Positions 5,762-51,538 of a stretch of DNA of 64,000 nt are shown here, piece after piece (the stretch's first letter is position 1; the number at the start of each line of letters is the position of its first letter). The translations under genes and the position numbers were made by a program. Origin of the DNA: Kangiella sp. (GTDB lineage Bacteria > Pseudomonadota > Gammaproteobacteria > Enterobacterales > Kangiellaceae); contig NZ_JABURJ010000104.1 in assembly GCF_014762745.1 (NCBI RefSeq), forward strand, positions 33,135 to 97,134. Reading direction: 5' to 3'. The notes under the pieces are model-generated. The model did no database searches. It had not been told where the DNA came from and worked only from the letters and a program-made list of their open reading frames with translations.

Positions 5762-5785
5762 CATATTGCCAAATTTGGCAATATG
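5762..5785. repeat. Perfect 24-bp palindrome CATATTGCCAAATTTGGCAATATG
   Basis: Sequence equals its own reverse complement. Confidence 0.9.
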
Positions 5786-16760: not shown

Positions 16761-16838
16761 TCAACCGGCACAACAGGGCAGTTCTTCCACATCCTTGTCA
16801 AAGGTTTGCGCACACAGTTTCAAACCTTCTAGAGGTAC
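16761..16838 (-). pseudogene. merA: 3' end of a second merA (mercuric reductase C-terminus)
   Basis: Reverse strand reads [25 protein letters not shown], matching [24 protein letters not shown] of the full merA at 31685. Confidence 0.85.
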
Positions 16839-16886
16839 GGCCACGATTCGTTACAAATCGACCAAAAATATACTTAACCTCATGAA
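16832..16886 (+). repeat. Left terminal inverted repeat of putative Tn3-family transposon
   Basis: GAGGTACGGCCACGATTCGTTACAAATCGACCAAAAATATACTTAACCTCATGAA; 46/55 identical, ungapped, to the reverse complement of 35049-35103; about 160 bp from the tnpA 3' end. Confidence 0.85.
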
Positions 16887-17043
16887 TTATAAGTAATCTT
16901 TCAAAAATCTTGGTTGCATATTTTGATCTGCACACAGTTATCAGATATGTCTATCGGAAGCTTTCACTTCTAACACCTATACCGTATCTCCTTGTAATTA
17001 CCAAGGGTGTATTCAATATCATGCAAACTCGACTCACCCACTA

Positions 17044-20018
17044 CTACGGAACTTGGCTCTTTGTGATATCCAGTTTGTAATTCAGAGTTTTACTTTTTTT
17101 GCTTAAATCTAGATGGTAATCACCGAAGCGATTAATATGCTCGGTTCGATACGGTGAAAGAAACTTCAGCACCTCTTCTGAAACTGGGATTTGACGGTGC
17201 TTCAATTGCGATAGAACTTCTGACATGGATTGAACGTTATGCAAAATAACCAGATTAGCTACAAGTTGATTGTACTTAATGACCTTACGCTGTTCGTGCC
17301 GGACATTCTCAGCAATAATGCCGTCACCGCCAAAAAACAACCACTTGGTGAAGTTATTGAACTCTTCACTTTTGTTGGTGGCTGCATGAATGGTACGCCT
17401 GAGCTCCACATCACCGATGTACTTCAGTAAGAATGCTGTTCGGATCACTCGTCCTAACTCCCGAAACGCAAAATACAGTCGATTCTTCCGACTGTAAGTG
17501 CCTAAGCGTTTGAGTATGGTCGATGGCGCTATTTTGCCGGCTTGGATAGACAGCGCCACACGCAACATATCAGGCAGATGTCGCTCTATTAGTGACCAGT
17601 TAATATTACCTCTAAACAATCGGTTAATGTGTTTATATTTAACGCGACCATCCGCTTTATAGAATACCAGCTTCTTGATGTTCCGTATTCGGGGCATCAA
17701 ATCAATACCGAGTAAGTAAGCTAGGCCAAAGACAGTCGTGCTTTGAGCCTGAGTGTCACCATGAATCACATCAGGTTGAATGTCCGATTCATTTTTAATG
17801 AGACCATCAAGAATATAGATAGCCTCGTAGACGCCGCAAGGAATGAAATGACTGAATAACGCGATGTAAGTATCCGAGACATGGTAATAGCCAATACCAC
17901 CATAGCCGCCGTAACGGATATGATATTCTGACAACAGGTTTTGCTCATATACGTTCCACTTGGTTCCGTCAGCAGAGGCCGATTTGCCTGTACCCCAGTA
18001 AGATGGCAACTCAAATTTATTATAAGCATTCACGGTTTTCACAATAGCTTTTTCAAGCTTCTCCTCAGTGACATGCTTTAGATTCAGCCAAGCAACTTGC
18101 TTGCGGGTTAAGTTTTTGATGGAGCGTGCCGTTTGAGTTGGGCCAAGATTACAGCCATAACAAAAAAGCGTTGAAATAAAGCGCTTGCGCGGATTATCAA
18201 GTTTACTCTCAAAGCCTGATATGGGTTTAAATAGCTTGTGGGCGTCCAGCCATTGCTCTGATTCCACTAGAATATCGACAATGCTCTTTTCCTCAAGAGA
18301 GTCTCGTAAGGCTTCATCCAGCTGCTTGAGCTGTTTGGGCTCTGGAGTATTCTGATGTCTTCTGATCACAAGCTGATCGTTATTGAAGTCTAGAAACTCA
18401 TTGGATTGAAATTGCTCGTCCACCTGAGCTGATAACTCGCTAAGCGTTTCTTTTAGTTCAGTCACAAAGGTTTTGCTATCCTCTGAAAACCCTAGCATAT
18501 TGGTGTATTCAGGCAGGCCTTGTTCGTACTCATCCCAACTGATTAGTTCTTTACGATAATCTGAATGCTCCTGGCTGTAACGAATGAATAAATCACCTGA
18601 ACTGAGTTCGTTCTTGATCCGAGACAACACGCATAACTCGAAGTATTTGCGGTTAATCGTTTTCGTGTCTGCGTTGAATATCAGCTTCTTCCATTTATCG
18701 TTCATCCAAGGCTGTGCGACAAAGTCATCATAGTGGCCGAGCTCCTGCTTGTGGGTATTTCGATACTCCAAGATGATTTCTAGCGCCCTTAGGATCGAAT
18801 TATCTTCAGATGATGAGCCTAGAGCTCTAAAAGCTCCAAACAGTTTAGAAGCTGGGCTCGTTGCGGCTTATACAATTTAAGCATGAAGGGATAATAATTA
18901 TTTCCGGCATAGGCTAAGTGCTCTTCACACTCTGCCAATAGTACTGATGGCTCTTCGCTCATGGCGTTTCGGATATCTTCCAGTGACGGCTGTATGTCAG
19001 CTTCATTATCACCATAAGTTTTTAAGACATTACGAAATTGGTTGATGAGCTTTTCCGTTCGCTGAGTATGCTCCTGGTGGTATTCCATCAGCCGAGTCTC
19101 CGCAGACTGGTGCAACTTATTCAGTTTACGCTTAAAGATACCCGCCACATCGTCTAACGATTGACTTAATTTTGACTGGATCAATAGCACCATCAGTGTG
19201 TAACGTTTAGCTTGCTTCATTTCTTTTAAGTGAAAAGCATCCAGTGAACGAGCTTCTAAAGTGTAATGGTGTTTTTTCGTTAACGGTAAGAATTCCATAT
19301 TTGGCAATCGTTCGACCAAGTCTTGTAGCCATTTCAAATGTTGAAGGTAGCTTTTGACTTCTTTATTTGTAGGCTTTTTGACCTCCCGTTTAATCGAGTC
19401 CCAGCGCGTTTTTCTTCCAGAGCTATTGAGCATTTTATCCAACTCAATTGTCATCTCATGATTCAGCTTTTTATGTGTTTGCTTGAAATAGGTATCGTTG
19501 ACCTGCTTTTTAGCTGATTTGGCATGTTTAACCAGAGTTGAGAAGCCTGGTAATTCATAGCGCTGTTTAACCAGCTCCTCGATAACTACATTGATAACAT
19601 CAGCGAGCTCATGCTTTTTTTCTGATGCTTCGGATGAAAGCTTATGAAGCAATAATGTTGCTGTATTATTATTCTCAATAAGCTTAATGTTTAGATACCG
19701 CCTCACTAAAATCTTTAAACGGGTTCGACTCCCACCCCTGTCAAAGCGTGCTAAGTACTTTTTGGGAGTGTCGCCCATTTTCATCAGCTCAGAAATATGA
19801 GTAACAATCTTGTTTGGGATGTCAGAAGATTTGAGAAAATACCCTAAGCGCTGAGTTAATTTAATATGAACTAACAGGGCAAGCTGATCTAATTTGCGCC
19901 GGCGATGCTGGCGAATATAGGCCATGTCCTCTGGTGTCGGTGTATATACAGACTATAATTCAGACTGACTCATGTTGGGTTTAATGCGCGGGTAAGCGGT
20001 TTCATTGATTGTTGTCAT
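17044..20018 (-). pseudogene. tnpA: Tn3-family transposase, interrupted by an in-frame TAG and a 1-nt frameshift
   Basis: Reconstructed start MTTINETAYPRIKPNMSQSEL*SVYTPTPEDMAYIRQHRRRK (TAG 19953-19955); frames rejoin near 18835 (QLLNC / FGAFRALGSSSEDNSILRALEIILEYRNTHKQE); C-terminal catalytic half has YGGIGYYHVSDTYIALFSHFIPCG, VIHGDTQAQSTTVFGLAYLLG; 2975 nt + 1 = 992 codons. Confidence 0.92.
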
Positions 20019-20279
20019 AGAGATATAAAATAACGTCCACGGATATCATGGCCAATTAGGTGGCTTGATCATTTGGTTACCTTTTAAAGGTTCAGCTGTT
20101 TAGCTCAGTCGCTACACCTTGCACCTTACCTATAGTAATATTTAATGTTGCGCAGTTTAATGAACCCGCCCTAGACATTTCGTGCTCAAGTTCACTCTAT
20201 ATTGAATTAATGCTTAACATTCATATTTCATGAGGCCTGTGGAACATTGTAGTCTTCATTCCAGTTTTATTGTATTGCA

Positions 20280-21221
20280 CTACTTGAGTGGCTCAATAAA
20301 GCGTTGCTGAATTCGATTATATGAATCTATGTAGCGTAGAGCCGTTTTGGGATCTTTCCAACCAACGTACTCCATTAAATCTTTGAGACTCCAATCATTA
20401 CTGTCTGCCCATGAAGCAAATCCTCGGCGTAAAGAATGACTGCTAAAGCTCTCAGGATGCTCAAGCCCTGCATCCCTGGCGCAATCGCGCACGATATTGA
20501 TGATGGTATTCGGCGTCATATTGTGTTGGTTGAAATGCCCCCAGCGATCGATCCCGATAAACAGTGGGCCCTCGGTTAATTCAGCAGCTGTTATCCAGTC
20601 CTGATAGGCGGTGACTGGGCAGAGTTTTTGCAGAGCCGGTACTTTATAGGTCGTACCTTTATTGTTTCTATCGCCTTTGGAGTTTGGCAAATACAATGAC
20701 ATTCCTTTATTGGGGATCACGATTACGTGCTCAATGTAGATGTTGGTGAGTTCATCTGCACGAAAGGCTCGCCAGAACCCGAGCAGCAGAATGGCTTTGT
20801 TTCGGATATGCCTTAAGCGCTGCCAGTAATCTTTACTTTCTGTAATCAATGAATCCAACGACTGAATAATGGTGTCGAGCTCTTCTAACTGAAGCGGTCG
20901 AGCCTGCTTAGGTTGGTACGGATGCGTTTGACGTATGCCTTTCATCACCTGTTTAACCAGGGGAGCTTTCGTGGGATCGGGAAAACCGTACTCATTGTGC
21001 CATTTAGCGAGTACGGCCAAACGATGTGCTAAGGTACTGGACGACAACTTATCGGCATAGTGACTGAGGTACTGCGCAATCGCATCAGGTGTTGCAGGTA
21101 ACAGGCCGCCCCAGTGACGCTCATAGTGCTCAACGGCGGCACGGTAACTGCGTACCGTGTGTTCTCGAGTGGCGGCGTTGACGTAAAAGCTGACTAAATC
21201 AGTATTTTTAGAATCGGGCAT
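20280..21221 (-). CDS. Tyrosine recombinase, candidate TnpS-type cointegrate resolvase
   Basis: 313 aa; LLLGFWRAFRADELTNI, SFSSHSLRRGFASWADSNDWSLKDLMEYVGWKDPKTALRYID. Confidence 0.85.
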   Translation of the reverse strand: MPDSKNTDLVSFYVNAATREHTVRSYRAAVEHYERHWGGLLPATPDAIAQYLSHYADKLSSSTLAHRLAVLAKWHNEYGFPDPTKAPLVKQVMKGIRQTHPYQPKQARPLQLEELDTIIQSLDSLITESKDYWQRLRHIRNKAILLLGFWRAFRADELTNIYIEHVIVIPNKGMSLYLPNSKGDRNNKGTTYKVPALQKLCPVTAYQDWITAAELTEGPLFIGIDRWGHFNQHNMTPNTIINIVRDCARDAGLEHPESFSSHSLRRGFASWADSNDWSLKDLMEYVGWKDPKTALRYIDSYNRIQQRFIEPLK

Positions 21222-21278
21222 GATTGCGTGTTATGTACGGCTTTGCCTCATCATATCGCCCAAAAACGCACATCACAA

Positions 21279-21299
21279 TAGATAATCTACTATTATCTA
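21279..21299. promoter_or_regulatory. Inverted repeat TAGATAAT-CTACT-ATTATCTA, candidate recombinase core site
   Basis: 8-bp perfect arms and 5-bp spacer, between divergent recombinase and coiled-coil genes. Confidence 0.5.
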
Positions 21300-21341
21300 A
21301 AATGAATTTTCGAAAGCTATAGACACGTAGATGACACAGTA

Positions 21342-21363
21342 ATAATATGTATATACATATTAT
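21342..21363. promoter_or_regulatory. 22-bp perfect palindrome ATAATATGTATATACATATTAT, candidate operator
   Basis: Self-reverse-complementary; 34 bp upstream of the coiled-coil gene start. Confidence 0.5.
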
Positions 21364-21397
21364 GTATTACATTACAAAATAATCAGAGACTTAAAAA

Positions 21398-22348
21398 ATG
21401 GCGCGCACAGGCATCTCTCAATTTGACGTTGAAAAAGCATATAAATCATTGACTTCACAGGGTGTAAATAACCCATCAATTGATGCAATACGAGCTGAGC
21501 TGGGTAACACTGGCTCCAAAACCACTATCTCAAAATACCTCAAAGACATTAAAAAGACCCGTACTAACGGTACACTCACCGAGGTCAAAGTCTCCGACGC
21601 CATTGGGCACCTGGTAAGCCAGCTTGCTGCCAGGCTCAACGCTGAAGCGAATAAAACCATTGAAGACATGGAGCAAGCCTTTGATAAAGAGCGTAAGTCT
21701 TGGAATCAAGAAAAGTCAGGACTTGAGGAGTCGTTAAGCCAAGCCACAGAGCAAAATAAAGCTCTAAGTGATAACATTCACTCACTACAGGCGAAGCTCA
21801 ATACTGCTAGCCGTGAGAGTGAGCAACTGAACACTGAGTTGCAAGGTATTCAAAGTGACTTGAAAGAACTTACAGCCGTTTGTGGACAAAAAGATGAACG
21901 AATTATCGATCTGGAGAAGAGTCTGCAACACAGTTATGACAACTTGAGCCACTTCCGCGAATCCGCTAAAGAACAGCGTGATCAACAAGAGCGCAAGCAC
22001 GCTGAAGAAGTGTCGGGATTGCGAGCAGAGCAGCGAAAGCTGGGGCAAACCATTGCCTCTCAACAGTCAGAACTCACGCAGTTGAACCGTCAGAACGCTG
22101 AGCTAATCACCGAAAAGCGGTTGTTGGCCAAGTCACAGCGCGAACTTCAAAACTCATTAAAAGCGTTAACTGAACAGGTGCAGTCAGCCAGTACTGACAG
22201 AGAGGAGCTACTAGCGCAACTTGATGCTATAACCAAAGAAAACAATGAGCTAAACACTTCCGTTGTTCAGCTAGAGCATGAGGTTGAGGAATTGAAATCG
22301 CCCGAGAAACTCGCAAAAAAACAGGAAGTAGCCAAGTCTAAAAGCTAG
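21398..22348 (+). CDS. KfrA-like DNA-binding coiled-coil protein, candidate TnpT
   Basis: 316 aa; N-terminal VEKAYKSLTSQGVNNPSIDAIRAELGNTGSKTTISKYLKDIK, then long coiled coil. Confidence 0.8.
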   Translation: MARTGISQFDVEKAYKSLTSQGVNNPSIDAIRAELGNTGSKTTISKYLKDIKKTRTNGTLTEVKVSDAIGHLVSQLAARLNAEANKTIEDMEQAFDKERKSWNQEKSGLEESLSQATEQNKALSDNIHSLQAKLNTASRESEQLNTELQGIQSDLKELTAVCGQKDERIIDLEKSLQHSYDNLSHFRESAKEQRDQQERKHAEEVSGLRAEQRKLGQTIASQQSELTQLNRQNAELITEKRLLAKSQRELQNSLKALTEQVQSASTDREELLAQLDAITKENNELNTSVVQLEHEVEELKSPEKLAKKQEVAKSKS

Positions 22349-22468
22349 CCTTTAAGCACAAAGCTGTGTAATAGTTGGTTAGTATCCACTTATCTTTTGT
22401 AAACTAACTGATAATCTGCTAGTCTACTGCCCTGCATTTATGAGAACGAGTAGAGACTCTTTTTTACC

Positions 22469-22834
22469 GTGAACCGTCAACTTTTAACTTTCGCTCTAGC
22501 CATATTGATTGCCCTGCAATCGGTAGTTGCTGTGGCGGACGTTCATCAGTTTCATCAATCCGGTTCTGAGCATCTTACTTTTGATCACGAGCATCAAAAA
22601 GCTCACTCTTCTCCAATACCAGATGATGACAAGCGTTGGTTAGAATCAGAAAAGAGCAAAAGCTACCAGCTTGATTGCCACCATTGTTGTCACTGTCATG
22701 GCTCATCACACCCTTTCTTTCTGGGTCGCCAAGATATCTCTGCTTCTCTTTATCAAAAGGGTGCTATTTTAGGCAACCCTTCCCATTACCGTTCCCATAT
22801 AGCCTTCCCTGATAATCCCCCTCCGATCAGTTAA
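22469..22834 (+). CDS. CzcI-like small exported His/Cys-rich protein
   Basis: 121 aa; signal peptide, YQLDCHHCCHCHGSSHPFF, immediately upstream of czcCBA. Confidence 0.6.
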   Translation: MNRQLLTFALAILIALQSVVAVADVHQFHQSGSEHLTFDHEHQKAHSSPIPDDDKRWLESEKSKSYQLDCHHCCHCHGSSHPFFLGRQDISASLYQKGAILGNPSHYRSHIAFPDNPPPIS

Positions 22835-22932
22835 ATACAGTACAAATAAACTTTTATTCTGAGGTATAGCGTTGTGCAAATGCCAACCCAGCTGTACCTG
22901 ATGTACTTTGATTTTAATTGTGAGGAAATTTC

Positions 22933-24165
22933 ATGAAGAAACTATCCGTTTCTTATGCGATGTGTGCCGTTATTTATTTGCTGTCGGCTTCGGCGCAAGC
23001 GCAACCCGTTGATTGGGAGCGCTGGCTGGCATCACAGATAAAGCAGCACCCAGACATCATCGCGGCCCGCGAGCAACTGCAAGGCTCGGAAGCTACTGCG
23101 GACGCAGCGGAACAGCCACTTTACAACCCGGAGTTATCTTCTGAGCTGGAACAGGTTGGTGAAGAAAATAACTACCGTGTAGGTGTTTCTCAAACGGTTG
23201 ACTGGTGGGATAGACGAGGTGCTAAACAGCAGCAGGCGGCTTTTATCCGACAAGCAGCCAAAGCCCAGTATCAGCAACAGGTTATGAGTAAGACTGCTGA
23301 GGCTCTATCAGCATTGGTTGAGTGGCGTGCCAGTAATCAAGCCGCCATTATTGCTCAGGCACAAAAAGAGCAGCTTAATGCATTATTGCAAGTGGCTGAA
23401 AAGCGCCAAAAAGCAGGGGATATAGGCACTATTGATGCTGAGCTCACCTTTCTATCTTTATCAAAACAGCTGGCACAGGTCGCTGAGCTTGAAGTCGCTT
23501 TGCAAAAAGCCGAAAGCAGAGTGCGCGAACTTTTGCCACAGTGGACTCCTGAAAAAGGAGGCATTCCCGAAGATTTCTGGCCTTCGGAGCCAGTGTCCAT
23601 TACTGACCAGGAGTTGTTACAACATCCCTATGTTGCCAGCGCTCAGGCTCGCTGGAAGTCCATCAAGGAAGAGGCCGAAGCAACCCGCCGCGCAGCCAAA
23701 GCAGAGCCGACCTTTGGAGTCAATGCTGGTCGCGACGGTGGAGAAAATACTGTCGGCCTGACCTTCTCGATTCCTTTGAATGTACGTAATGACTACAGTG
23801 CCGAAACTCGTGTGGCTAATCGTGCAGCACTAGAAGCAGAGGCCCGATTCTTGGCCGTTTATCGCAATCTACGGTTTGACTGGCAGGCTGCACAAGCTGC
23901 CTGGAAACGTTATGACGAGCAATACCGACGCTGGCTCGAGCTGGCTCGTGGCAGAGTTGAAAATAGTGCTGACTTGTTGGAACGCCAGTGGCGAAGCGGT
24001 GATCTATCAACAACTGACTACCTGCTCGCTCTCAACCAGCGTTCGGAGAGCCTGCTGGCAGGAATCTCACTCGAAAAGCACACACAACTTGCGTTAACCG
24101 AAGTGTTGCTGCACTCCGGCCAGCTCAGAGCTGTTGCACCAACTGCGACTAAGCCACTGAATTAA
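22933..24165 (+). CDS. czcC: TolC-family outer membrane component of RND metal efflux
   Basis: 410 aa outer-membrane-factor repeat architecture, in operon with czcB and czcA. Confidence 0.85.
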   Translation: MKKLSVSYAMCAVIYLLSASAQAQPVDWERWLASQIKQHPDIIAAREQLQGSEATADAAEQPLYNPELSSELEQVGEENNYRVGVSQTVDWWDRRGAKQQQAAFIRQAAKAQYQQQVMSKTAEALSALVEWRASNQAAIIAQAQKEQLNALLQVAEKRQKAGDIGTIDAELTFLSLSKQLAQVAELEVALQKAESRVRELLPQWTPEKGGIPEDFWPSEPVSITDQELLQHPYVASAQARWKSIKEEAEATRRAAKAEPTFGVNAGRDGGENTVGLTFSIPLNVRNDYSAETRVANRAALEAEARFLAVYRNLRFDWQAAQAAWKRYDEQYRRWLELARGRVENSADLLERQWRSGDLSTTDYLLALNQRSESLLAGISLEKHTQLALTEVLLHSGQLRAVAPTATKPLN

Positions 24166-24175
24166 AGATAGGATA

Positions 24176-25492
24176 ATGAACATGAATAGATTATTGATAG
24201 CGATGCTAAGCGCCGCAATGACTGCACCAAGCATAGGGCTTGCAGAAACGATGAGTGGTGAGGCGCACGAACATGATAAGAGCAAGCCTGCTCAAGAGGT
24301 TATTGAGCATAAGGATGATGCGTCTCACAAGGAGCACCCATCAAATGCCACGGATGAACATGAGCGTCATGGTGATACAAAACATGGGTCTAGCGATAGT
24401 TCCCACAATGAAAGTCATGATGATGCGGGACACAGCGAAAGTAATACTGAAGAAGATGGACATGGGCATCAAGAAGAAGCTTCTGCCACTACGGCACTAA
24501 ATGCTACTCAAATGACGATTGCTGATATCCAGGTTGCTCCTCTCACTGCCGAGCGCGTTGATTATGAGTTCTACGCACCAGGGGAAGTTCTTTCTAATGG
24601 ATACACTAGCTACATAGTGTCACCGCGAGTAGCTTCCGTTGTATTACGTCGTCACGTAGCATTGGGCGCTCATGTCGAACAAGGTCAGCCACTGGTAACC
24701 CTGTTCAGTGAGGATGTGGCGCAGGCCCAGGCAGACTATCGCACCGCTTGGCCTGAATGGGAAAGAGTCCGCAAGCTCGGTCGCAAAACCGTTGGAGAGC
24801 AGCGTTATATCCAGGCCAAAACCAGCTGGGAGGCTGCTCGGGCAACGTTGCAGGCCTATGGGTTAGCTGAGTCAGATTTGCAGTCTCTGGCATCGCAAGA
24901 TATTAAGGCATTGGGCGAATATACCCTACGTGCCGAAACCGATGGTTCTGTGTTATCTGACGACTTCGAGCAGGGGCAGCGCGTCGAAGCTGGTTCTCCT
25001 CTGATCAAGCTGGCCAATGAGAAGCAGCTCTGGGTCGAAGCACACCTTCCAGCAGATCAGTCTATATCACTTCCGCTCGGTACATTGGCTGACATTGTGG
25101 CTGGTGATATCCGAATTCAAGGCAAGGTATCCCAAGAAGCACATACCATAAACCCCGTTACACGAACCCGAACAGTGCGCTTATTGGTGGACAACCTGGA
25201 GCATAGGCTGCATCCGGGACAGTTTGCAGAGGTCTTCTTCCGTTTTCGTACAGAAGAGCCGGTATTGGCTGTGCCAGAGTCAGCACTGATGCGAAATCCC
25301 GATGGAGACTGGGCAATTTTTGTAGAAGAGAGTCCAGGGCAGTTTCGCTCTCAAGAAGTTGAACTAAAGCGAGCACTAGGTTCGTTGCGTGAAATTAACG
25401 GCATTGTTCCCGGAACACGTATTGTTACCGACGGTGCCTTTTTTGTTGCTTCACAAATCGCCAAAGGCGGTTTTGATCCGCATAACCACTAA
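24176..25492 (+). CDS. czcB: RND efflux periplasmic adaptor with His/Asp-rich N-terminal region
   Basis: 438 aa; HEHDKSKPAQ...HGSSDSSHNESHDDAGHSESNTEEDGHGHQEE; HlyD-like GEVLSNGYTSYIVSPRVASVVLRRHVALGAHVEQGQPL. Confidence 0.88.
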   Translation: MNMNRLLIAMLSAAMTAPSIGLAETMSGEAHEHDKSKPAQEVIEHKDDASHKEHPSNATDEHERHGDTKHGSSDSSHNESHDDAGHSESNTEEDGHGHQEEASATTALNATQMTIADIQVAPLTAERVDYEFYAPGEVLSNGYTSYIVSPRVASVVLRRHVALGAHVEQGQPLVTLFSEDVAQAQADYRTAWPEWERVRKLGRKTVGEQRYIQAKTSWEAARATLQAYGLAESDLQSLASQDIKALGEYTLRAETDGSVLSDDFEQGQRVEAGSPLIKLANEKQLWVEAHLPADQSISLPLGTLADIVAGDIRIQGKVSQEAHTINPVTRTRTVRLLVDNLEHRLHPGQFAEVFFRFRTEEPVLAVPESALMRNPDGDWAIFVEESPGQFRSQEVELKRALGSLREINGIVPGTRIVTDGAFFVASQIAKGGFDPHNH

Positions 25493-25508
25493 GCATTAAG
25501 GAGACTCT

Positions 25509-28500
25509 ATGTTTAATCGAATTGTCGATTGGGCGGTCACTAACCGTTTGCTGGTGGCGATTGCGCTCATTACACTAACGGTCAGCGCCTTTTTTATTAT
25601 TCCAAGGCTGAATCTTGATGCATTTCCGGATGTTACCAACGTTCAGGTCTCGGTCAATACTGAAGCTCCTGGCTTGGCTGCTGAGGAAGTCGAGCAGCTG
25701 ATAACCTATCCGATTGAAGCTGTCATGTACGCTCTGCCTGATGTAGAAGAAGTAAGGTCTATTTCAAAGACTGGCTTGTCTGGCGTTACTGTTGTGTTTA
25801 AGGAAGGCACTGATATTTACTTTGCCCGGCAACTGGTATTCGAGCGACTTCAGGCTGCCAAAGAGCTGATTCCAGAGGGCGTTGGTACACCCGAAATGGG
25901 GCCAAACACTTCTGGGCTGGGGCAAGTCTATCAGTATTTACTGGTTGCCGAACCCGGTTCGGGTTTCGATGCCATGGAGCTACGCAGCTTAAATGACTGG
26001 GTGGTCAAGTTGTTGCTTATCCCGGCCGAAGGCGTGACTGATGTGCTGTCTTTCGGCGGTGAGGTGCGTCAGTATCAGGTCGATCTGAATCCGTCAAAGC
26101 TGTTATCTTACGATCTGACCCAGGACGATATCATGGCGGCTCTGGAGCGTAACAACACCAATGTTGGCGGCTGGTATATGAACCGTGGTCAGGAGCAATT
26201 GGTGATCCGAGGTACCGGCTGGCTCGATCATGGCAAGCAAGGGCTGGAGCAGATCCGTCAAGTTCCCCTGAAAACGGTGGATGGCACCACTATCACCGTA
26301 TCGGATGTAGCCAAAGTGAATCTGGGTAGCGAAATCCGCCAGGGCGCAGTGACCATGACACGCCGAACTTCGGATGGGAAAGTTGAGACACTAGGCGAAG
26401 TCGTCTCAGGCATTGTATTAAAACGTTTAGGCGCCAATACCAAAAGCACCATTGATGGGGTTAATGCCCGTATCGAGCGTATTAATCAGGCGTTACCGGA
26501 AGGAGTTAAGTTCGAGGCTTACTATGATCAGGCCGATCTGGTGACGCAAGCGGTTGATACCGTTGTCAATGCTCTGTTACTGGCGTTTGTCTTCATTGTG
26601 GTCATTTTGGCGCTGTTCCTAATGAATTTGCGTGCTACCTTACTGGTACTGATCTCAATTCCAATTTCCATCGGTATTGCTTTGATGGTGATGGCGTGGT
26701 TTGGTCTTTCGGCAAACTTAATGTCTCTAGGCGGTATTGCCGTGGCCATTGGCATGCTCGTGGATGGCTCTGTAGTGATGGTCGAAAACATGTTCAAACA
26801 TTTGACCCATCCCGATGCCACCCATGACAAAGATAGACAGACAATGGTTCAGGATGATCCAGATCCTGTTGATGCAGCTCATGATAGCCATGGGATTGCT
26901 TTACGCTTGCAAGAAGCTGGCAGAGAGGTAGCAAGACCTATATTTTTTGCGACAGCAATTATTTTAGTTGTCTTCATGCCGCTATTCAGTTTCGAAGGGG
27001 TCGAAGCCAAACTGTTCCAGCCGATGGCTATCAGTATCATGCTGTCTATGCTGTCCGCGCTGGTTGTAGCTTTAATCATAGTCCCAGCATTAGCCACCTA
27101 CCTGTTTCGCAAAGGGATACGCCCGCGGGAGAGTTTCGTCTTGAAACCACTTGATAAACTCTACCGCAAGGGTTTGTCGTGGGCTATGAGCCACAGTAAG
27201 GTCGTCGTTGGTATTGCTGTAACGCTCGTGGTTGCGGCAGCTTTAGTAATACCGCGTCTGGGTACCGAGTTTGTGCCTGAACTCGAAGAAGGAACGGTCA
27301 ACCTCCGGGTAACTCTCGCTCCGTCCTCCAGCCTGGATACTGCGCTTGAAGTCGCTCCAAAACTCGAAGCAATGCTGATGGAATTCCCGGAAGTCACCTA
27401 TGCGTTATCACGCATTGGACGTGCCGAAATTGGCGGTGATCCAGAGCCAGTGAATAACATTGAGATCTATATTGGTCTTAAGCCAGTGCCAGAATGGACC
27501 AGCGCCGATAATCGTTATGAACTTCAATCCCTGATGGAGCAAAAGCTGGAACAACATCCCGGATTGCTGTTCAATTTTTCACAACCAATTGCCACCCGTG
27601 TGGATGAGCTGTTATCGGGGGTTAAAGCGCAACTAGCGATAAAACTCTTTGGTAAAGATCTTGATGTGCTGGCTGAAAAAGGGCAGGCAATTGAGGCAGT
27701 GGTCAAAAAGATCGACGGTACGCGTGATGTTGCCATGGAGCAAATTGTCGGTGAAGCTCAATTGGTCGTAAAGCCCAATCGCCGCGCATTGTCTCGTTAT
27801 GGACTCGACGTAGCGGATGTCATGGAAGTGGTTCGAAATGGGCTTGGCGGTGCCAGCGCTGGACAAATCATCAATGGTAACGAACGTTATGATATCTATG
27901 TTCGGTTGGATGAACGTTTTCGCCAAGATCGCGAAACTATTGCTGACCTTCGTTTGCAGGCACCTTCAGGAGCCTGGGTTCGCCTTGGTGATGTAGCCTC
28001 TGTAAATATTGCTTCCGGCCCGCCGCAGGTTCGCCGAGATGATGTTCAGCGCAGAGTAGTCGTTCAGGCCAATGTGCAAGGGCGTGATATGGGCAGTGTG
28101 GTAGCAGATATTCGCGCAGCGATTGCTGAACAAGTTGATTTGCCAACGGGTTACTCCGTGGATATAGGTGGACAATTCGAAAATCAACAGCGAGCACAAA
28201 AGCGTCTGTCGCTGGTCGTGCCATTATCGCTGGCGCTTATTGCCTTGTTGCTTTACTTTGCCTTTGCTTCGGTTGGTCAGGCTATGCTGATCCTGGTAAA
28301 TGTACCTCTAGCCGTTATTGGTGGGGTGTTCTCACTCTGGCTGTCAGGGCAGTATTTATCAGTGCCCAGCTCGGTCGGATTTATTACCCTGTTTGGCGTC
28401 GCGGTACTTAACGGTGTAGTGATGGTTGAAAGTATCAATCAGCGTATCAAGGATGGCCTACCTGTCAGTGAAGCCGCTTTTGATGGTGCCGTATCCAGGC

Positions 28501-28703
28501 TTAGACCGGTATTGATGACAGCAGTGACATCTGCGTTAGGTTTAATACCGATGTTGCTATCAAATGGCGTTGGCGCAGAGATACAAAAACCGCTTGCCAG
28601 TGTTATCGTAGGCGGGCTGATAACAGCCACATTTTTAACACTGTTTGTGTTGCCCGTTCTGTTTGCCTGGTTTTCAAAAGGTAAGTTGAAGGAGAAACAC
28701 TAA
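25509..28703 (+). CDS. czcA: CusA/CzcA-family heavy-metal RND transporter
   Basis: 1064 aa; RLNLDAFPDVTNVQVSVNTEAPGLAAEEVEQLITYPIE, GGIAVAIGMLVDGSVVMVEN, GTEFVPELEEGTVNLRVTLAPSSSL. Confidence 0.95.
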   Translation: MFNRIVDWAVTNRLLVAIALITLTVSAFFIIPRLNLDAFPDVTNVQVSVNTEAPGLAAEEVEQLITYPIEAVMYALPDVEEVRSISKTGLSGVTVVFKEGTDIYFARQLVFERLQAAKELIPEGVGTPEMGPNTSGLGQVYQYLLVAEPGSGFDAMELRSLNDWVVKLLLIPAEGVTDVLSFGGEVRQYQVDLNPSKLLSYDLTQDDIMAALERNNTNVGGWYMNRGQEQLVIRGTGWLDHGKQGLEQIRQVPLKTVDGTTITVSDVAKVNLGSEIRQGAVTMTRRTSDGKVETLGEVVSGIVLKRLGANTKSTIDGVNARIERINQALPEGVKFEAYYDQADLVTQAVDTVVNALLLAFVFIVVILALFLMNLRATLLVLISIPISIGIALMVMAWFGLSANLMSLGGIAVAIGMLVDGSVVMVENMFKHLTHPDATHDKDRQTMVQDDPDPVDAAHDSHGIALRLQEAGREVARPIFFATAIILVVFMPLFSFEGVEAKLFQPMAISIMLSMLSALVVALIIVPALATYLFRKGIRPRESFVLKPLDKLYRKGLSWAMSHSKVVVGIAVTLVVAAALVIPRLGTEFVPELEEGTVNLRVTLAPSSSLDTALEVAPKLEAMLMEFPEVTYALSRIGRAEIGGDPEPVNNIEIYIGLKPVPEWTSADNRYELQSLMEQKLEQHPGLLFNFSQPIATRVDELLSGVKAQLAIKLFGKDLDVLAEKGQAIEAVVKKIDGTRDVAMEQIVGEAQLVVKPNRRALSRYGLDVADVMEVVRNGLGGASAGQIINGNERYDIYVRLDERFRQDRETIADLRLQAPSGAWVRLGDVASVNIASGPPQVRRDDVQRRVVVQANVQGRDMGSVVADIRAAIAEQVDLPTGYSVDIGGQFENQQRAQKRLSLVVPLSLALIALLLYFAFASVGQAMLILVNVPLAVIGGVFSLWLSGQYLSVPSSVGFITLFGVAVLNGVVMVESINQRIKDGLPVSEAAFDGAVSRLRPVLMTAVTSALGLIPMLLSNGVGAEIQKPLASVIVGGLITATFLTLFVLPVLFAWFSKGKLKEKH

Positions 28704-28831
28704 CTAGCAATCTGCCGGCTCTATTTTGGAGTCGGCAATACTTTATAATAGCAAGATGGTTTGAACCAACACCCCATTAATGCTGAAAGCTCGCCCATTT
28801 TCGTATCGAGGACTCTCCGCTTTAGACTATA

Positions 28832-29782
28832 GTGATCGGGGAGGGGGAAAGCCAATATCAAAAAATGCAAGGTATACCTATGAGCCAGAAATGTAACCGT
28901 GACTGCAAAGCAGATGCTACAGATGAAACACAAGATATTACTAACGACGACAAGTTATTAGAAGGGGCACATGTAAGCGAATACCACGTTCCTAAAATGG
29001 ACTGCCCATCAGAGGAAGGCATGATCCGAATGGCACTGGACAGTCTTGAGCCAAGTGTAATCCTCGAGTTTGATACACATAAACGCATAGTTAGAGTGTT
29101 TCATCACCTTGAACTCAGGGACATGGTAGAAGACCGGATAACGTCTCTTGGGCTTGGGGCTAGATTGGAATCAACTAACGCTGTGGACAGCGAGATTATC
29201 CATAAAGCAAGGTTGACGGCACAAAATGAAGAAGCAGAGGAAGCTGGGATACTTAAAATGCTATTAGCTATTAATGCAGTGATGTTTATTACAGAGCTTG
29301 TTATCGGCTGGTGGGCACAATCGACCGGATTGATAGCTGATTCATTGGATATGTTTGCCGATGCAGCAGTGTATGGGGTGGCACTATACGCCGTTGGGCA
29401 TGGCGTCCGAAAAAAACTCCGTGCAGCGCATATATCAGGATGGTTACAGATTATATTAGCTCTGGGTGTATTAACAGAAGTTGTGAGGAGACTGGTTCAA
29501 GGGAGTGAGCCTGAGTCAAACCTTATGATGGTGTTTGGCTTAATTGCCTTGGTAGCAAATGTCTGGTGCTTAATCTTAATTGCCAAAAAGCGAAATGGCG
29601 GCGCTCACATGAGAGCAAGTTGGATTTTTTCTGCTAACGATGTCATCGCCAACCTTGGTGTTATTATTGCTGGGGGGTTGGTAGCATGGACGGGGTCGCA
29701 ATACCCAGACTTAATCATTGGCTTTATCATTGGCTCAATTGTTTTAACTGGTGGTTTTCGCATATTGAAGATCAAATCCTAA
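28832..29782 (+). CDS. CDF-family cation transporter with N-terminal HMA-like domain
   Basis: 316 aa; YHVPKMDCPSEEGMIRMALDSLEPSVILEFDTHKRIVRVFH then TM domain with GLIADSLDMFADAAVYGVALYAVG. Confidence 0.82.
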   Translation: MIGEGESQYQKMQGIPMSQKCNRDCKADATDETQDITNDDKLLEGAHVSEYHVPKMDCPSEEGMIRMALDSLEPSVILEFDTHKRIVRVFHHLELRDMVEDRITSLGLGARLESTNAVDSEIIHKARLTAQNEEAEEAGILKMLLAINAVMFITELVIGWWAQSTGLIADSLDMFADAAVYGVALYAVGHGVRKKLRAAHISGWLQIILALGVLTEVVRRLVQGSEPESNLMMVFGLIALVANVWCLILIAKKRNGGAHMRASWIFSANDVIANLGVIIAGGLVAWTGSQYPDLIIGFIIGSIVLTGGFRILKIKS

Positions 29783-29816
29783 AGTAAGAATAAAGCTCCA
29801 CAAGAGGTAATCTTAA

Positions 29817-30704
29817 ATGCATGATCATTCGCACTCACATGGTTCAAATAATCGTATAGGTTGGGCATTTTTTCTGAATGTCACCTTTACCATTATCGAG
29901 TTTATAGGAGGTATCTTAACCAATAGTACCGCCATCATGGCCGATGCAGTCCATGATCTTGGCGACAGTTTATCCATTGGATTTGCTTGGTTCCTTAGTA
30001 AAGTTAGTGAGAAAGGTTCAAATTCAGAGTTCACCTATGGTTATCGCCGATTATCACTGCTTGGAGCTCTTATTAATGGCCTAGTCCTGATTATTGGTTC
30101 TGCATGGGTTCTGACAGAAGCTATCCCTAAACTCCTGCAACCAGAAATGCCTATGGTTGAGGGCATGATCGCGTTAGCCGTGTTTGGGGTGCTAGTTAAT
30201 GGTTTTGCGGCTTATAAATTAAGTAAAGGTAAAACTCTTAATGAGCGTATACTCAACTGGCATTTACTGGAAGATGTACTTGGTTGGGTTGCAGTTTTAA
30301 TCGTTTCCATCGTACTTCTTTTTGTTGACTGGCCCATTCTTGACCCAGCTTTGTCGTTTCTTTTCACTCTCTATATTTTAATTAATGTTGCTAAAAACCT
30401 TTGGCACACTATAAGGTTATTTTTACAGGCAATCCCTGACAAAGAACTGTCAAAATCAGTATACAAAACCTTAATAGAACTTGAAGAAGTGGACAGTATC
30501 CATCACCTGCACTTGTGGTCATTGGATGGAGAGCATCACGTACTTACTGCTCATCTAGCTCTACAGGATGCACTATCTATGCAGCAACAGCTGGAGTTAA
30601 AAAAATCTATAGCAGAACGATTGAGTAAATTTAATTTAGAGCATACGACTATTGAGCTTGAAATGACTGACGAGCAATGCCGCGATGCTTCTGAAGCTTT
30701 GTAA
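29817..30704 (+). CDS. CDF-family (CzcD/ZitB-like) zinc/cadmium transporter
   Basis: 295 aa; MHDHSHSHGSNNRIGWAFFLNVTFTIIEFIGGILTNSTAIMADAVHDLGDSLSIG, VDSIHHLHLWSLDGEHHVLTAHL. Confidence 0.92.
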   Translation: MHDHSHSHGSNNRIGWAFFLNVTFTIIEFIGGILTNSTAIMADAVHDLGDSLSIGFAWFLSKVSEKGSNSEFTYGYRRLSLLGALINGLVLIIGSAWVLTEAIPKLLQPEMPMVEGMIALAVFGVLVNGFAAYKLSKGKTLNERILNWHLLEDVLGWVAVLIVSIVLLFVDWPILDPALSFLFTLYILINVAKNLWHTIRLFLQAIPDKELSKSVYKTLIELEEVDSIHHLHLWSLDGEHHVLTAHLALQDALSMQQQLELKKSIAERLSKFNLEHTTIELEMTDEQCRDASEAL

Positions 30705-30763
30705 TTGGGAGAGTACAGCTATAATTTATATTGTGGCCGCACAGTAACTGGTACCCTTGACTT

Positions 30764-31561
30764 ATGCGTCGATTAATTTATTTCGTTGAATCAAATCTTG
30801 TTTGGTTTGTGATTATTGTAGCTGGAGTTGGCCTGATATTGCCCGAATCCGGGAAGTACCTCGACTCCTCAATAGCCCCTTTACTTGTGATTCTGATGTT
30901 TGTGATCAGCCTTACATTTGATGCACATGCCGCACGAATAGTCTTTCGCAAACCGTCAAGACAGTTTTTGGCAATGGGGCTCGTCTATGGCCCGATTCAA
31001 TTGCAGGCTTCTTGACTGGTCGCCTTTTTCAATGCGGTCAATACAGCCTTTTCTCCTTTCGTAGTTCCGCTCCTTTTTCTATGGCTGACAGGGATACAGC
31101 TAGAAGTCCCTCTCGTTTCCATCATCCTGGAGTTAGCTCTAGTTGTTTTAGTGCCTACAATTCTCGGTGTAACCTTACGCACCAACTTTCCGACGATTAT
31201 TTCAAAGCATGATTCGACTTACGCAGGAATTGGGTCAGTCTTCTATCTTGTAATATTACTTGCGGTAGTGGCTTCCAATGCAGAAACCATCATTGGTTAT
31301 GGATAGTATGCTTTTGTAATTGCTGGAGCAGCTTTAAGTCTAAATCTTTGTGGCTACTTAATTGGAATGGCTTCACGGTTTATAACGACAGACCGACCGG
31401 AAGTCATCGCATACCTATTTACTGTAAGCAAAAAAGAATTTAGCATTGCAGCGGCTTTTGTGGCTGCATCCCGGTTGCCATCAGAAATAGTAATACCAGC
31501 CACATTCTTTGCAGTAATTCAGATGATCACATCTCCTATTGTGGCCAAATATCTTGCTTGA
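30764..31561 (+). pseudogene. Bile acid:sodium symporter/ACR3-like carrier with two in-frame stops
   Basis: One continuous 266-codon frame, TM-rich on either side of TGA (31013-31015) and TAG (31304-31306). Confidence 0.8.
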
Positions 31562-31684
31562 GGCTAGCTCTCAAACAGTTACTGAAGAAACTTTCCACGA
31601 AGAAATATGCAGTAAATTGGTAGTACCGTATCACTGGAAACCAAAAGCAGACTCATAAATATCTTTTCTGACGAAAGATAAAGC

Positions 31685-33778
<2,094 letters not shown>

Positions 33779-33791
33779 TAGTATTCGTCCT

Positions 33792-34079
33792 TTATTGCTT
33801 TACCACAGATGGATAGCCGGCATTTTTTGTGGCCTCGGTCAGCTTTTCCACCGTAGTTTTTTCATCATCAAAAGTGACCACGGCTAACTTATCTTCGAAG
33901 GTCACTTCAGCTTTGGTAACTCCCTCAACCTGTTGCAATGCTTTTTCCACCGTAATCGGACAAGTTACGCAGGTCATCGTGGGAACTTCAAGCATGACTG
34001 TTTGCTGCTTGGCAAACGCACCCAAGCTAAGTATTGATAGTAGGGATAATAGTGCAATTTTTTTCATCTTCTTCTCCAA
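33792..34079 (-). CDS. merP: Periplasmic mercury-binding protein
   Basis: 95 aa; signal peptide, TVMLEVPTMTCVTCPITVEKALQQVEGV. Confidence 0.92.
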   Translation of the reverse strand: MEKKMKKIALLSLLSILSLGAFAKQQTVMLEVPTMTCVTCPITVEKALQQVEGVTKAEVTFEDKLAVVTFDDEKTTVEKLTEATKNAGYPSVVKQ

Positions 34080-34101
34080 GGGTTATTTCTCAACGATATA
34101 A

Positions 34102-34449
34102 TTAAGCAAACCAGATAATCCAGTAATTGCTAGTGACTAATATTAATGCAATGAAGGCGGTTACCCAGAAAATGATCTGCCGGCGCTTACGTACTTGTGG
34201 CATTGCACAAGCGGTTCCAGGCTCACACTCTTCTATAGGTCGATAAACTTTCCAACCGGCAAAACTAAATAAAACCAGTACCAGCAAGATAAAAATAGGG
34301 CGGTATGGCTCCAATACGGTCAGATTGCCAATCCAAGAACCACTAACGCCTAGTAGTAACAAGACTAAGGGCCCAGCACAACAAAGCCCAGCACCAATAG
34401 CAGCAGCAATACCACCAACTAGCGGTAAACTGGTATCGTTTTTTGCCAT
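34102..34449 (-). CDS. merT: Mercuric transport protein
   Basis: 115 aa; GGIAAAIGAGLCCAGPLVLLLLGVSGSWIGNL, three TM. Confidence 0.92.
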   Translation of the reverse strand: MAKNDTSLPLVGGIAAAIGAGLCCAGPLVLLLLGVSGSWIGNLTVLEPYRPIFILLVLVLFSFAGWKVYRPIEECEPGTACAMPQVRKRRQIIFWVTAFIALILVTSNYWIIWFA

Positions 34450-34483
34450 GGCTTACTCCACTTCAAATGTTCTGATAGAAAAC

Positions 34484-34516
34484 AGTATAAACTCCGTATC
34501 CAAGTACGGAGTCAAG
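34484..34516 (-). promoter_or_regulatory. MerR-type operator/promoter of merT
   Basis: Reverse strand TTGACTCCGTACTTGGATACGGAGTTTATACT; dyad ACTCCGTA-TCCAAG-TACGGAGT (34491-34512); 19-bp spacer if -10 is TTATAC. Confidence 0.85.
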
Positions 34517-34533
34517 GGGTTTAGCGATTGTTA

Positions 34534-34926
34534 TTAGTTGTTTTCTGGGAGAAGGGAAGTAATAATCGGGCAATGTGCCTGTTCAGTGTTGCTTGCACAT
34601 TGTTTCAGTAAATCATTAAGACTGGTTTCTAAGCGGCGTAGATCAGCCATTTTTGCACGAACACTGGCAAGTTTGTGGTTTGCTATACTTTGTACTTCTT
34701 GGCAAGAAGTCTCTTCCAGCATCAGCAAGTTAGCGATCTCATCCAAGGAAAACCCTAACTCTTGAGCACGTTTGATAAACCGAATGCGATTCAAAGTCGT
34801 CTCAGGATAACGACGATAACCTTTAACGGGTTTTTGGGGCTGTTCAATTAAGCCGCACCGTTCATAATATCTAACGGTCTCAACGTTTACGCTTGCCAAT
34901 TTGGCAAGTTGACCAATTACATACAT
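34534..34926 (-). CDS. merR: Hg(II)-responsive transcriptional regulator
   Basis: 130 aa; IGQLAKLASVNVETVRYYERCGLIEQP, LMLEETSCQEVQSIANHKLASVRAKMADLRRLE, CASNTEQAHCPI. Confidence 0.92.
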   Translation of the reverse strand: MYVIGQLAKLASVNVETVRYYERCGLIEQPQKPVKGYRRYPETTLNRIRFIKRAQELGFSLDEIANLLMLEETSCQEVQSIANHKLASVRAKMADLRRLETSLNDLLKQCASNTEQAHCPIITSLLPENN

Positions 34927-35048
34927 AATTTAACCGTATTGTCGGTACTGAAGTGGGTAGTAAAATTCTAAGTTGAAAGTACGAATATAACAAACAGTGT
35001 ATCAATAGCGCAAAGTCTGCTGTTAGTTCGTTGAGATATTCAATATAT

Positions 35049-35103
35049 TTCATATGGTTAAACTATTTTTTGGTCGATTTATCACGAATCGTGGCCGTAC
35101 CTC
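35049..35103 (-). repeat. Right terminal inverted repeat of putative Tn3-family transposon
   Basis: Reverse complement GAGGTACGGCCACGATTCGTGATAAATCGACCAAAAAATAGTTTAACCATATGAA matches 16832-16886. Confidence 0.85.
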
Positions 35104-35282
35104 AAATAGAGTATGTACCGTTTTACATCGAATTGAAATATTAATAGGGTAGCTATGCAATATCAGGATTGGAACCACTCACGCCACGCATAGAGCTAAA
35201 ATATCACGCCACATATAAAGAGCAGGGCATCTAAACGATTCTAATAATGATATTTTGACAGATTTAAAGACTGAGATGTTGC

Positions 35283-46108: not shown

Positions 46109-46136
46109 GTAGGGACAACTCATGAGTTGTCCCTAC
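46109..46136. repeat. 28-bp perfect palindrome GTAGGGACAACTCATGAGTTGTCCCTAC (copy 1)
   Basis: Self-reverse-complementary; near-identical copy at 51511-51538. Confidence 0.9.
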
Positions 46137-51510: not shown

Positions 51511-51538
51511 GTACGGACAACTCATGAGTTGTCCCTAC
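51511..51538. repeat. 28-bp palindrome GTACGGACAACTCATGAGTTGTCCCTAC (copy 2)
   Basis: One mismatch from the unit at 46109-46136. Confidence 0.9.

Follow-up and report, generated by a model that had tools for sequence, protein, structure and literature searches.

What is the function of the gap between tnpS and tnpT, two divergent genes found in the 64-kb window of Kangiella DNA analysed here (the whole stretch, to whose numbering all unassigned positions refer)? The gap is 176 bp long, has an AT content of 70% and extends from position 21222 to 21397. A preliminary description had proposed that it holds a resolution site between divergent genes for a recombinase and a coiled-coil protein, and it had the neighbours right. 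tnpS (20280-21221, reverse strand) encodes a tyrosine recombinase with an HSLRR...RY motif; its product matches Phage_integrase (9.7e-13), and HSLRR and Y297 are conserved. tnpT (21398-22348, forward strand) encodes a KfrA_N DNA-binding domain with a long coiled coil, and the TnpT protein gave no convincing match among solved structures. According to the passages on rst in PMC4619425 (citing Yano 2013) and PMC7157771, a resolution site of this name lies between divergent tnpS and tnpT genes and is made of a core and an accessory palindrome (Acc), which in Tn4651-type elements are assigned to TnpS and TnpT, respectively.

The two genes belong to a Tn3-family, Tn4651-like transposon of 18.3 kb (16832-35103). 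Both its ends are terminal inverted repeats starting with GAGGTACGG, one at the tnpA end (16832-16868, forward strand) and the other at the passenger end (35067-35103, reverse strand), with 94.6% identity over 37 bp. They fit the rule for the Tn4651 subgroup, whose terminal repeats are about 38 bp long with GGGG or GAGG as first bases (PMC4619425). The 5-bp target duplication that is a feature of this subgroup is absent (TTCTA at 16827-16831 compared with AAATA at 35104-35108), as it is from the ends of the copy carried by plasmid pKD02 of Alteromonas macleodii (locus L089); a later rearrangement is possible, and we do not claim membership of the subgroup on this feature. Beyond tnpS lies tnpA (17044-19925, reverse strand), for a Tn3-family DDE transposase. 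Its frame is broken by a 2-bp insertion (AG, 18821-18822) that is missing from the four copies compared (K. aquimarina, K. spongicola and two from Alteromonas) and is either a recent mutation or an assembly error. Because of this insertion the Kangiella copy may have lost the ability to transpose unaided; its resolution module is intact. The passengers include a CusA/CzcA-type efflux operon and a 566-aa frame (31685-33385) resembling a mercuric reductase, as judged by eye and from a comparison with pKD02. The transposon is of the metal-resistance type with a marine bacterium as host, and the stretch of it compared is 99.9% identical between the window and K. aquimarina.

Looking at the gap itself, we found a short dyad, TAGATAAT-CTACT-ATTATCTA, at 21279-21299 and a 22-bp perfect palindrome, ATAATATGTATATACATATTAT, at 21342-21363, both as first described. 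The two had been called nested; they in fact lie side by side with 42 bp between them. Shuffling the gap with its dinucleotide composition preserved never produced a perfect palindrome of at least 22 bp (0 of 3000); an 8-5-8 repeat with a spacer of exactly 5 appeared in 19 of 3000, and arms of at least 8 with any spacer from 3 to 10 in 38 of 1000. The short dyad by itself is therefore only mildly improbable, and it is conservation that decides its weight. The whole window contains five palindromes of at least 18 bp and three five-spacer repeats with arms of at least 8. Elsewhere in the window, a 28-bp perfect palindrome, GTAGGGACAACTCATGAGTTGTCCCTAC, was seen at 46109-46136, and its centre recurs 5.4 kb off as a 20-bp copy (51515-51534); these are possibly operators for one regulator. 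A 24-bp perfect palindrome, CATATTGCCAAATTTGGCAATATG, lies at 5762-5785.

We then compared the gap with related loci, gathered via TnpS, via TnpT and from annotated plasmids, one of them pWW0, from which Tn4651 comes. Both dyads proved to be conserved, and the comparison suggests functional units larger than the dyads first described. The first is a core (21275-21303, reverse strand), ATTTTAGATAAT-AGTAG-ATTATCTATTGT, with a 12-5-12 layout around the inner 8-5-8 dyad and a 5-bp centre at 21287-21291; it is the predicted crossover site of TnpS. The second is Acc, a conserved element of 37 bp (21343-21379, reverse strand) that includes most of the 22-bp palindrome and is a putative TnpT site and may serve as operator of tnpT. 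Some 40 related loci, spread over many genera and including Tn4651, have core and Acc 74-76 bp apart, start to start. With the profile built from the first set, 35 rows had a distance of 76 bp, 4 had 75 bp and one had 74 bp; these rows include some redundant copies, and 32 distinct site pairs are left once copies are removed. The profile also gave four stray weak calls at other core-Acc distances. All ten loci outside the profile-building set had the two elements 75-76 bp apart, as did seven further held-out loci. At locus L058 the profile had placed the core at 65 bp; we replaced this placement by an 11-6-11 repeat, recognised by eye, 76 bp from Acc. Both elements were seen in most gaps where tnpT adjoins, and three loci (L123, L128 and L129) showed no recognisable site. 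Weak TnpT-like matches in other genomes (L095-L110), from which the core was missing, were left out. In five of these loci (L096, L098, L099, L100 and L110), which encode KfrA_N-like proteins, there is a weak motif of the Acc type nearby and no core at the expected distance; the proteins are perhaps free-standing autoregulators.

Could the dyads simply be promoter and operator features of a divergent gap? The gap is indeed AT-rich, divergent and intergenic, KfrA proteins repress themselves via palindromes or repeats (PMC7783346), and weak promoter-like matches cover both elements, though no more than in shuffles. This explanation, which we regard as very improbable, meets a difficulty in eight loci (L005, L012, L024, L047, L049, L058, L079 and L084) where passengers of about 1.2-4.6 kb are inserted between rst and tnpS. 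Among these passengers are a toxin-antitoxin pair (L084), a mercuric-reductase-like gene (L079) and a helicase-like gene (L012). Even with tnpS 1-5 kb away, core and Acc remain 74-76 bp apart, so that the core is not tied to a tnpS promoter. Moreover, the crossover position reported for the TnpS/TnpT group is the core (PMC7157771), and two pairs of transposons change identity there (see below). The neighbouring genes, the terminal repeats and the conserved core and Acc at fixed spacing instead support the resolution site that had been proposed: the gap is very probably the rst, or cointegrate-resolution site, of a Tn4651-like transposon, with TnpS acting on the core and TnpT on Acc. The roles of core and Acc are drawn from the literature on relatives; the sites, their conservation, spacing and arm symmetry, and the identity step were seen here.

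The symmetry of the core was studied in the same relatives. The ATAA/TTAT flanking the centre is nearly invariant, and the outer arms are variable in sequence and largely complementary within each element. Arm pairing averaged 9.37 of 12 within elements and 7.68 of 12 between elements, and none of 20000 permutations reached the observed sum. In the Kangiella element 9 of 12 pairs are formed, the arms being poorly paired outside the inner 8 bp. This kept complementarity is what would be expected of the paired sites of a recombinase with drifting specificity. The suggestion that the short dyad resembles a tyrosine-recombinase core is supported: the dyad lies inside a core conserved with fixed spacing in about 40 TnpS/TnpT loci.

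An account in terms of two dyads is nevertheless incomplete, since it missed a third conserved element. This distal box, CCGTACATAA (21231-21240, reverse strand, with GTAC at 21235-21238), has the consensus CAGTACRNAA, which repeats the outer Acc box TTTCGTACTG in inverted form, and is a putative second TnpT contact. The whole rst would then extend from 21231 to 21379, and this three-part layout of distal GTAC box, core and Acc is conserved in relatives. Of 33 loci, 30 have GTAC or GTAT at a distance of 33-36 bp from the core towards tnpS, nearly always at 35 or 36; by chance, GTAC is expected at 0.003 per base. As the box was discovered in this larger set, the independent test rests on held-out loci only: it was present in five of the seven with a core and absent from two. 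All loci together, the box lies on the tnpS side, 35-36 bp from the core, in 35 of 40. In the eight loci with passengers between rst and tnpS, the whole rst is found next to tnpT; the box remains with the core, and the passengers follow it towards tnpS. In our reading, TnpT would contact the DNA on both sides of the core, at Acc and at the GTAC box. The box might otherwise be a conserved promoter element of the gene on the tnpS side, as in most elements it lies upstream of tnpS and tnpS promoters have been reported within rst (PMC4619425). We find this unlikely: the distance of 35-36 bp from the core is kept even before unrelated passengers, the consensus mirrors the outer Acc box in inverted orientation, and the box is unlike −10 and −35 hexamers.

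The copy of the same transposon in pKD02 (18.2 kb) gave a further indication on the core. When the Kangiella and pKD02 copies were compared, 15.7% of positions differed over tnpA and tnpS, and 0.25% over tnpT and the passengers. Identity steps from about 84% to 99.8% with a best change point after 21271 and a 95% interval of 21271-21289, which covers the tnpS-side arm of the core and half the centre. This step looks like a past crossover at the core. In a second, unrelated pair, from Ralstonia (L049) and Cupriavidus (L070), the elements share 84% identity as far as the core and are dissimilar past it. Both pairs match the trace that site-specific exchange between different transposons would leave, which does not amount to proof; pairs that are similar both before and after the core are uninformative on seams. 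A Pycsar-like pair (cyclase and effector, 30459-32353 of L089) directly adjoins the transposon end in pKD02.

Homologous recombination also acts in this transposon family, as indicated by an extra seam within tnpA of K. spongicola (L003), a mosaic that is Alteromonas-like to about 18947 and window-like after, with a diverged patch at 19289-19386. In the Zhongshania group, too, an identity step lies near tnpS and not cleanly at the core. With such further seams inside tnpA and near tnpS, the step at the core might be an ordinary end of homologous recombination fallen there by chance, and would then be uninformative on the function of the site. This seems to us rather improbable, since a random end in an 18.3-kb element would land about 15 bp or less from the core centre in only some 0.2% of cases per seam, and the second, unrelated pair also switches at the core.

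How would such a site work? Replicative transposition would produce a cointegrate with two transposon copies in one molecule. TnpS would bind both core arms (21275-21303) of each copy, and strand exchange in or beside the 5-bp centre would separate the copies. TnpT would bind Acc (21343-21379) and probably also, across the core, the GTAC box (21231-21240), and so help to assemble the synapse, the fixed distances being near whole helical turns. From the core centre it is 63.5 bp to the centre of the palindrome, or 6.05 turns, and 52.5 bp to that of the GTAC box, or 5.0 turns (10.5 bp per turn). A synapse built by TnpT may allow the reaction only between direct repeats on a single molecule. From the same DNA, TnpT may repress both tnpT and tnpS; its putative site in Acc lies about 34 bp before the tnpT start codon. 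The palindrome had been suggested to double as the operator of the coiled-coil gene, and this is plausible by analogy, because TnpT has a KfrA_N domain and proteins of the KfrA type act as repressors of their own promoters, where they occupy palindromes or repeats (PMC7783346). Both the synapse geometry and this autoregulation are inferred. The fullest version, in which TnpT on inverted boxes flanking the core in register (about 8, 6 and 5 turns from the core centre) would form a loop that permits only resolution, and the core would also be the seam for half-exchange and passenger gain, is put forward tentatively, our confidence in it being slightly short of even.

This type of site is already known from Tn4651, and the Kangiella rst joins it. 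On pWW0, the rst of Tn4651 agrees with that of Kangiella in gene order and orientation, in having a core dyad and Acc at 76-bp spacing, and in the position of the GTAC box; it differs in its core and Acc sequences. TnpS of Tn4651 is 54% identical to that of Kangiella, and the pWW0 TnpT also has a KfrA_N domain; tnpA lies about 48 kb from tnpS on pWW0 whereas it is adjacent in Kangiella. The intact TnpA homologue of pKD02, a close relative, scores 622 bits with only 35% identity against TnpA of Tn4651, and 293 bits with 25% against another Tn3-family TnpA that lies beside a recombinase-family gene on the same plasmid. In TnXax1 and TnXocp1 of Xanthomonas, too, the region between tnpS and tnpT contains a core and an Acc palindrome (PMC4619425, PMC7157771), and the Xanthomonas loci L117 and L120 match our profile; TnXocp1 carries passengers between the two genes (PMC4619425), unlike the Kangiella element, which has none. 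The irs of Tn4430, site of TnpI, also combines a tyrosine-recombinase core with accessory sites, but these are direct repeats and Tn4430 has no TnpT-like partner gene (PMC7157771), whereas Kangiella has a separate KfrA-type protein. KfrA of RA3 and RK2 resembles TnpT in being a KfrA_N protein beside a TGTA/TACA-rich palindromic or repeated site (PMC7783346), but the RA3 and RK2 sites are operators without a recombination core. What goes beyond the accounts in PMC4619425 and PMC7157771 is the constancy of the spacing from genus to genus, together with the third box and the natural seam; an earlier description of the GTAC box in the original studies of Tn4651 (Genka 2002, Yano 2013) is possible.

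Altogether, one unstudied gap contains a complete, recognisable resolution site. A profile made of core, Acc, GTAC box and their fixed spacing detects such sites in raw sequence even where passengers have come between the two genes. With its constant distances and its third box, the site allows direct tests of the way in which a tyrosine recombinase is controlled by a KfrA-type protein, and the step at the core suggests a route by which metal-resistance modules may pass between transposase modules.
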